This document shows, one piece after another, positions 15,999 to 18,803 of a DNA stretch of 44,140 nucleotides (position 1 is the stretch's first letter; every line of letters starts with the position of its first letter). The notes under the pieces are model-generated. The model was not told the DNA's origin. It searched no databases and saw only the letters and a list, made by a program, of their open reading frames with translations. Origin of the DNA: Pseudomonadota bacterium (lineage in GTDB: Bacteria > SZUA-182 > DTGQ01). The stretch is from positions 1 to 44,140 of the forward strand of contig DAOURK010000022.1 of the NCBI GenBank assembly GCA_030625085.1, written 5' to 3'. Position numbers and translations under genes: made by a program.

Positions 15999-17516
15999 AT
16001 GAAAAAAAATATTTGTTTTTGTCTGCCTCTTGTATTTATTATGTCCTTAGGTTTATTTGTATTTCCTTATTCAGCCAAAGCCCAACCTAAAATTGAATTT
16101 ACTGAAACAGAATATGATCTGGGTAAAATATATCAAAATAAGAAAAAAAGCCATATTTTCACTTTTAAAAATGCGGGAACTGAAACTTTGACTATTGAAA
16201 AGGTAAAAGCCGGATGAGGCTGCACTGCTGTTAATCTCTCGGAGAGAGATATAGAACCGGGAAAAGTAGGCGAAATAAAAGTTACTTACCATTCCAAATC
16301 CTATAAGGGGAAACAGAGCAAAACTATTTATGTAAATTCTAATGATCCTAAAAACCCTGTAAGCAAATTAAAAGTTATAGCCTTTGTAAAAGTAGAAATT
16401 GATCTTAATCCCCGCCGAATAAACTTCAAAAAAATTTCTCCAACCGATAAAAAATCGCAATCTGTGGAAGTTACCAATCTCAGTGATAAAACTCTGCAAA
16501 TTTCTTCTATCACCTCAGCTCAAAATTTCATTACTATTAATTTATCTAACAGTAATTTACCTATAATATTAAAACCTCAGGAAAAAATGAGTTTTCAGGT
16601 AAATTTAGATGCCGCACTGATGAAGGGAAAAACCTGGGGCCAGGTAATTATTAATACAGACAATCAACATACTCCCAAAATAACTCTTTATGTGACTGGA
16701 AGGATCCAATCTCAAGACCAAATAAAAAAAAGTTCCCCAACCACCGGTCAAACACCCTTACCCCATCTGACATTTAGTGAACAGGCTCAAAAACTGTTTC
16801 CCAAATATAATTTTGTCTTCAATAACGTTACAAAAAATTTAGCTAAATGCGATTTTGGCAGATGTCTGCCTATGAAAGCATACATTCAATTGTTGATTGA
16901 TCAAAAAATCCCGGAAGAAAAAATTACCGAAGCTATACAGTATATCTATGGTCCAAAGGCAATCACTTCTATGGAAAAAAAGTCTCGTAAATCACCTATT
17001 AATACTTCAAGGTTAAAAGAATCGATTCAAAAGGCATTAAATGATAATTCAAAAGCCAAACTGGAATTGTATGTCATGAGTTATTGCCCTTTTGCCCTCA
17101 GGGCAGAGAAATCCTTGGAGAAGATAATCGCTGAATTTGGCTCAAAAATTGAGATACAGCTTTATTTTATCGCCGATCCTAAAACCTCAAATTCTGATAA
17201 GACAACTGATTTATTTACAAGCCTCCATGGGCTCCTGGAAGTAGAAGAAGATTTCCGTCAAGTCTTGATTCAAAAATATTTTCCAAAAAAATTATTCCCT
17301 TATTTACACCACCTCAATAAAAACATAAAAACAGCTAATTGGAAAGAATGTCTGAGTAAAGCAGGGATAGATCAGAAAAAAATAGAAAAACTTATGAATG
17401 ACAGCCAAAGCCGCCAATTATTTAGCGATAATATTGCCAAGGCAAAAAAAATAAAGATCCATGCTTCACCAACACTTCTCATCAATGGCATCAAATATAA
17501 AGGAGCCTTCAAGTAG
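15999..17516 (+). CDS. Selenocysteine-containing DUF1573/thioredoxin-like exported protein
   Basis: I read this as one 505-residue gene with TGA at 16215-16217 translated as selenocysteine 73. The frame is open and in register on both sides, and coding continues for 433 codons after TGA. Residues 1-28 are a Sec signal peptide (cleavage near AKA). Residues about 32-140 are a DUF1573 beta domain, where the usual Cys-Gly-Cys-Thr motif reads Sec-Gly-Cys-Thr (KAG-U-GCTAV). This suggests a Sec73/Cys75 redox pair. A second Ig-like segment spans about 140-235. Residues about 280-315 resemble CcmH (Cys284, Cys289, then a helix and YG). The C-terminal domain (about 355-505) is thioredoxin/DsbA-like with YVMSYCPFALRAE (Cys363, not CxxC). 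It probably acts as a periplasmic thiol-redox protein, perhaps in cytochrome or metal-centre maturation. Partners are unproven. Confidence 0.85.
16215..16250 (+). promoter_or_regulatory. Sec codon and bacterial SECIS-like hairpin
   Basis: The UGA at 16215-16217 is followed by a perfect 7-bp stem ATCTCTC (16234-16240)/GAGAGAT (16244-16250) with loop GGA. The loop begins 24 nt after UGA and starts with G, as bacterial SECIS elements generally require. A short lower stem (GTT/AAC, 16230-16232/16255-16257) may extend it. It lies wholly inside the coding sequence, as expected in bacteria. Confidence 0.75.
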
Positions 17517-18047
17517 CCTTCAGTCCCTCACCAATATAAAATTGCCATAACAACTATTCCATAATTCAAAATATTAATTAACAAAGAGATATCTGTTATC
17601 AGCACTTTTTCAGGTCTTCCACCTGCATTTTTTTGGTGTTATTAAATATAAATATCGCAATATCCCTAAAGAACAAAGGGTACAGTATAAATTAGTATGG
17701 TTTCAGCAATTCTCATTACGTTATGGGCACTATTCATATGAATAGCTGACAAAATGTTCGCTGAAGCGCTATAGGAAGGCTTTTTGTAAAACTTCCCCAA
17801 AAAGCATAATATTATACCAAGCTCAAGCTCTCTGAATAAGTTCATTATTTACTTAAGAGTTGCTAATGAGAAGTAATAAAAATTTTAACTTTACAAATTC
17901 GATTCTGATAAGCTATAATCTTATAAGAATAATACATTATCTTCTTAGATCACACCCCGGCAGTAAATATTAAAACAAAGGAAGCATCAAACATCTTAAG
18001 TCATACCATCTTTATCATTCACTTAAATTAAAGGAGGATAAAAACCT
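17517..18047. other. Intergenic region with one short repeat
   Basis: No coding frame is convincing in this 531-bp gap. It holds the 17748-17790 repeat and a 14-bp palindrome TATTCATATGAATA at about 17731. AAGGAGG at about 18031 is the ribosome-binding site of the cytochrome gene. I see no clear terminator after the selenoprotein gene. Confidence 0.6.
17748..17790 (+). repeat. Short dispersed repeat (GTTCGCTGAAGCG), copy 2
   Basis: ACAAAATGTTCGCTGAAGCG, then TATAGGAAGG and TTTTTGTAAA, match the minus-strand copy at 14794-14836. Confidence 0.5.
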
Positions 18048-18803
18048 GTGACCGAAAAGAAAAAAATGACCATGAAAATGAAGTTAATTTTGATTGGCAT
18101 AGGTGCGGTATTATTTGGAGTAATCGCCTTTGCAGGAATTGAACTTACCTGCACCTCATGGTTTTGTCTGAGTTGCCATGAAATGAAAGAGCTTGGTGCC
18201 AGTTGGAAGATATCAAAGCATGGGCCGGATAATCCTGAAATGCATAATTGTATGAAATGCCATGCCCAAGCCGGACTTTTAGGATTCATCAAGGCTAAAG
18301 TCAGCGGACTGTTTTCTCTGGTGTATCACATTTCCGGTAACTATCATCTCGAAGCAACACAACCGGTGGTTTGTTTGCGAAAGGGATGCCACCAAGAGGA
18401 GGATCTTGACCAGGCCCCAGGAGACCAAACAATTACTTTGAACCACGCTACACATATAAAGATAATGAAAGAAATTGGGACGAGATCAAAGTGCATGCCT
18501 TGTCACCGGGATATTGCCCACGGGGAAGAAACTTTTTTGCCGGACATGAAATCACTTTGTTTTCTCTGCCATACAGATCGAAGTATTGGCTCTGAAAATT
18601 GTTCTTTATGCCATCCGTCTCACCCAAAGGTTAACTTACAAGATTACGAAGAGACTGTTCTGGATTTACACCAGGAGGCCGAAATTTCTTGCGTTGAATG
18701 TCATACAGATGCCTGCAAAGCCTCGAAATCTAGTTGTGACGAATGCCATGAGGGTGATGATTATGGTGAGTTGATTATCTATAAAGGAAAAAAATTAAAA
18801 TAA
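18048..18803 (+). CDS. Membrane-anchored multiheme cytochrome c (NrfH/NapC-like), about eight hemes
   Basis: This 251-residue protein starts at GTG with AAGGAGG upstream. One N-terminal membrane helix (about 12-31) is followed by heme motifs. There are seven CXXCH sites starting at residues 40, 68, 149, 171, 185, 215 and 230, and one CX4CH (Cys109, Cys114, His115). The first site reads CLSCHEM, the CXXCHxM form seen in NrfH/NapC-type quinol dehydrogenases. It probably takes electrons from menaquinol at the inner membrane and passes them to a periplasmic partner. More hemes are predicted than in the classical four-heme NrfH. The next gene is convergent, so no reductase subunit is adjacent, and the partner is elsewhere. 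The selenoprotein gene upstream is on the same strand but more than 500 bp away. Confidence 0.85.
   Translation: MTEKKKMTMKMKLILIGIGAVLFGVIAFAGIELTCTSWFCLSCHEMKELGASWKISKHGPDNPEMHNCMKCHAQAGLLGFIKAKVSGLFSLVYHISGNYHLEATQPVVCLRKGCHQEEDLDQAPGDQTITLNHATHIKIMKEIGTRSKCMPCHRDIAHGEETFLPDMKSLCFLCHTDRSIGSENCSLCHPSHPKVNLQDYEETVLDLHQEAEISCVECHTDACKASKSSCDECHEGDDYGELIIYKGKKLK

Follow-up and report, generated by a model that had tools for sequence, protein, structure and literature searches.

The window analysed here (the whole stretch of 44,140 nucleotides) holds an open frame at 15999-17516 that is broken by a single in-frame TGA, at codon 73 (16215-16217), beyond which 432 codons remain open. The product is almost certainly a selenoprotein in which UGA73 is read as Sec, and the features that we assign to the gene and its product, all on the forward strand, are as follows.

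15999-17516, forward strand: predicted selenoprotein gene, 505 codons, UGA as Sec73, TAG stop (reading frame and orthologues)
15999-16082, forward strand: probable signal peptide, residues 1-28 (ending YSAKA, followed by QPK), recognised by reading, with export presumed from it
16092-16361, forward strand: DUF1573 (PF07610), an Ig-like domain of HYDIN/ASH type, residues 32-121 (Pfam E 1.8e-33; fold)
16215-16223, forward strand: Sec73 (TGA)-Gly74-Cys75, predicted U-G-C redox motif (frame, orthologues, CxC alignment)
16234-16250, forward strand: bacterial SECIS hairpin with a 7-bp stem and a GGA loop, the loop 23 nt past the UGA (model fit, conservation)
16377-16661, forward strand: second Ig-like, choice-of-anchor-D (ASH) domain, residues 127-221 (profile matches, fold)
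16764-16991, forward strand: helical segment with a conserved CX4C (Cys284, Cys289), approximately residues 256-331, weakly CcmH-like (alignment, profile comparison)
17061-17504, forward strand: DsbA/GILT-like thioredoxin-fold domain, residues 355-502, with Cys363 (CPFA), Cys451 (WKEC) and Pro491 at the cis-Pro position (Pfam, AlphaFold, Foldseek)

Recoding of codon 73

Five concordant lines of evidence identify codon 73 as Sec. Specifically, i) the family's three other species have orthologues, 54-60% identical, that keep the TGA at the same place, as does a shorter relative in a species of the same order (L031; the TGA is retained in L028, L029, L030 and L031); ii) the TGA takes the place of the leading Cys in the CGC motif of DUF1573 (surrounding residues AGUGCTA), within a DUF1573 alignment that crosses codon 73 and scores 114.9 bits against a gathering cut-off of 26.1, and relatives have Cys there; iii) the genome encodes tRNA-Sec (anticodon tca), selA, selB and selD; iv) a SECIS hairpin follows the codon; and v) dN is much lower than dS both before and after the TGA, indicating purifying selection on either side of codon 73; most pairs have a saturated dS, but the pair L028 and L029 does not and gives the same result. 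An earlier note made from the letters of this DNA had described the interrupted frame with its long open stretch, Sec in place of the first Cys of the CGC motif, and a 7-bp hairpin with a GGA loop after the TGA, and had proposed looking for the Sec genes; these observations hold up, and all four genes are present. The genome's own selD (L024, G000:C73:14627-15553) itself carries an in-frame TGA (AAGUAAK), encoding a Sec-containing selenophosphate synthetase.

The hairpin consists of ATCTCTC (16234-16240), GGA (16241-16243) and GAGAGAT (16244-16250). The published bSECIS model calls for a loop of 3-9 nt, a stem of 4-16 bp, a G among the first two loop bases, a distance of 16-37 nt from the UGA and an energy of -7.5 or lower (PMC13188914); with a loop of 3 nt, a stem of 7 bp, G as the first loop base, a distance of 23 nt and an energy of -9.1 kcal/mol, the hairpin lies within all four published criteria. 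Its codons, N79 to D84, are identical in four species at 6 of 6 consecutive positions, synonymous sites included, compared with 19% of comparable codons (permutation p = 0.00013); in L031 the stem persists, a U-A pair having become U-G, and one loop base differs. Across our DUF1573 family set, SECIS-like hairpins are commoner after Sec codons (14/23) than after Cys codons (8/35), with a p of 0.004 that is optimistic because related sequences were counted separately. The folding energy is no better than that of shuffled sequence (z = -0.07, not significant), so we set stability alone aside as evidence; support for the hairpin comes from its conservation and its fit to the SECIS model. An Rfam scan of the whole window gave no match.

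Were UGA73 a true stop, the gene would encode a 72-residue protein followed by a separate or decayed frame. TGA does serve as a stop in this genome, terminating 5 of the 28 likely genes within the window, and for that reason a general change of the code is unlikely; but homology runs across codon 73, selection is purifying on both sides, the TGA is conserved along with its position, and the Sec machinery is present, so that a true stop is exceedingly improbable and is refuted on the sequence evidence. Least probable of all, to the point of being negligible, is a sequencing or assembly error for TGC or TGT: the assembly is a draft, but TGA is read in the separate genomes G001, G002 and G003 and again in L056, a GenBank contig that carries the G002 gene, which refutes such an error.

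A published family in an apparently unreported architecture

The OS_HP2 family was reportedly founded in a 2007 Olavius paper. OS_HP2 appears with a UxC motif in the Global Ocean Sampling paper (PMC2398784), and a DUF1573 selenoprotein with the motif UGC is on the lists of two reviews (PMC9312934, PMC13188914); the protein had been called a new selenoprotein in the earlier note, and this we correct, since DUF1573 UGC is OS_HP2. The window protein has the family's UGC motif, Sec replacing the leading Cys of CxC (here the CGC of DUF1573), and like OS_HP2 (PF07610) has a bacterial SECIS downstream, but adds the second Ig-like domain, the CX4C segment and the DsbA/GILT-like domain. It scores 81.3 bits against NF041425, the NCBIfam entry for the family, below the curated cut-off of 100, and we therefore file it as a Sec-DUF1573 by its published UGC motif and not as a member of NF041425, whose cut-off is passed in only 1 of 386 genomes, and there by a Cys form; other UGC proteins also fall below it.

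The C-terminal domain matches the DSBA family in Pfam (PF01323, residues 359-501, 34.0 bits against a gathering cut-off of 25.6), and its AlphaFold model, compared by Foldseek, resembles Staphylococcus aureus DsbA and mouse GILT in fold. With the DsbA and GILT oxidoreductases (PF01323, PF03227) it shares the fold, a conserved active-site Cys and a Pro at the cis-Pro position; it differs from them in having CPFA instead of CxxC (CPFA or CPFG in three orthologues), in having its second conserved Cys 88 residues further on, and in sitting behind a Sec-DUF1573. Cys363, Cys451 and Pro491 are invariant across all aligned relatives, and with two invariant Cys the description of this thioredoxin-like domain as single-Cys was wrong. 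The structural models of the protein have a pTM of 0.41 and do not bear on contact between Sec73 and the C-terminal domain, and a PDB sequence search with the protein returned no significant match.

The CX4C segment, which had been called CcmH-like, keeps Cys284 and Cys289 in all four species of the family. With CcmH (PF03918) it has in common a Cys pair followed by two helices that end in YG, and a weak profile match (hhalign probability 77% against 13 CcmH sequences). In contrast to CcmH, recognised by CxxC and a three-helix bundle, it has CX4C and much shorter spacing, and neither the whole protein nor the segment matches the Pfam CcmH family; the segment searched alone has no Pfam match at all. 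The resemblance to CcmH is marginal, and identity with CcmH we reject.

The complete architecture is present in 3 of the 4 species of the protein's own family, the fourth (G002, L056) ending past the CX4C segment, and was found nowhere else, in a phylum sampled by nine genomes. In the loci examined outside the family, no DsbA-like domain is fused to DUF1573, and the domain occurs there only without DUF1573. The combination of signal peptide, Sec-DUF1573, Ig-like domain, CX4C segment and DsbA/GILT-like domain in one chain, which had looked undescribed from the outset, is apparently unreported in the literature that we searched.

Exchange of Sec and Cys at the DUF1573 site

We searched 386 genomes with the NF041425 profile. 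Among the matches listed, 22 have an in-frame TGA, and 21 of these have it precisely where CxC has its first Cys (20 UGC and 1 UAC, from 16 families); besides the species of the same family and order named above, genes from 14 further families have TGA at this site. Homologues with Cys at position 73, which the earlier note had suggested seeking, do exist, with CGC at the Sec site, among them paralogues in sister genomes (L051, L052) and one in the protein's own genome (L002). A tree of the DUF1573 domain, built from 57 rows and 103 columns and leaving many forks unresolved, intermingles Sec and Cys forms and implies about 10 changes (8-11 in bootstrap replicates); at least 2 are required when only branches with strong support are considered. 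Sec and Cys have thus probably been exchanged repeatedly at this site, which illustrates their patchy mutual replacement.

Several other DUF1573 loci deserve mention. L048 has Sec in a U-A-C motif, in the C-terminal DUF1573-like domain of a 695-residue protein. In L050 and L102 (both on the reverse strand), DUF1573-like domains have their in-frame TGA in Cys-Sec-Pro-Pro, shifted by one position relative to UGC; both genes have a strong SECIS-like hairpin (-12.6 kcal/mol in L050, -14.4 kcal/mol in L102), and they possibly represent a second type of Sec site in the DUF1573-like fold. A short DUF1573 frame of 93 codons (L005, G000:C176:6842-7027), ending soon past the CGC, is probably a broken or truncated paralogue.

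Possible function and gene neighbourhood

DUF1573 domains are common, and the literature searched yielded no established function for any protein that carries one. A redox role is likely in view of how selenoproteins generally behave and of the fused domain, and we consider the protein to be probably an exported Sec-containing thiol/selenol oxidoreductase whose DsbA-like domain would exchange electrons with Sec73/Cys75. UGA73 is almost certainly decoded as Sec by SelB-type recoding, as supported by the SECIS, the tRNA-Sec, selA, selB and selD genes and the conservation of the codon; Sec73-Gly-Cys75, carried on the first Ig-like domain, may form a selenenylsulfide that acts on a substrate; the tethered DsbA-like domain may pass electrons to or from Sec73/Cys75 as a built-in partner; and the CX4C pair is perhaps an intermediate between the two. 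A built-in relay between the DsbA-like domain and Sec73/Cys75 is a tentative proposal, and we regard as rather unlikely its fullest form, a single-chain extracytoplasmic selenenylsulfide relay in which a tethered DsbA/GILT-like domain serves Sec-Gly-Cys via CX4C; no description of a selenoprotein with such an arrangement was found in the literature searched. Against the involvement of the C-terminal parts, the G002 orthologue has the UGC and CX4C but not the DsbA-like domain, and L031 has neither C-terminal part, which shows that the Sec domain can do without them.

Alternatively, Sec73 and Cys75 might bind a metal or a substrate without redox cycling, the DsbA-like domain merely keeping them reduced. 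Ig-like domains may use CxC pairs to hold a metal, and L031 as well as other families have the UGC domain with no C-terminal domain behind it. However, Sec usually takes the place of a catalytic redox Cys, and fusion to thiol-disulfide domains, here and (by reading) in a Cys form, points to redox work, which leaves metal or substrate binding distinctly improbable. Cys-form DUF1573 domains (CGC) are found in L076 and L080; in L076, where Pfam confirms DUF1573 alone, the domain appears by reading to be followed in one chain by a thioredoxin-like CxxC and a DsbD-like membrane part, a fusion that supports a redox reading of DUF1573. The natural fusion of the Sec form to a thiol-disulfide domain likewise suggests that the UGC motif serves redox exchange outside the cytoplasm, and provides one molecule in which that role could be tested.

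Very unlikely is a role in cytochrome c maturation, as a Sec-containing analogue of CcmH or CcmG, which the earlier note had entertained. The weak CcmH-like match of the CX4C segment, the failure to find CcmH (PF03918) in the genomes of the protein's own family, and a NapC/NrfH-like multihaem cytochrome c gene downstream in the window (18048-18803, forward strand) would favour it; but the segment has no Pfam CcmH match and has CX4C, not CxxC, and the cytochrome gene is absent beside the orthologues L028 and L029. The sole neighbour conserved beside orthologues is the upstream DciA/DUF721 gene, and we therefore discount an operon link to the neighbouring cytochrome and histidine-kinase genes; no conserved neighbour supports a link to cytochrome maturation.

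Between the selenoprotein and cytochrome genes, at 17530-17690 on the reverse strand, lies what is left of a decayed C-terminal region, interrupted by stops and by a change of frame; by reading, it resembles the end of a UbiA/decaprenyl-phosphate phosphoribosyltransferase, and a longer open version of it adjoins the orthologue in L056.
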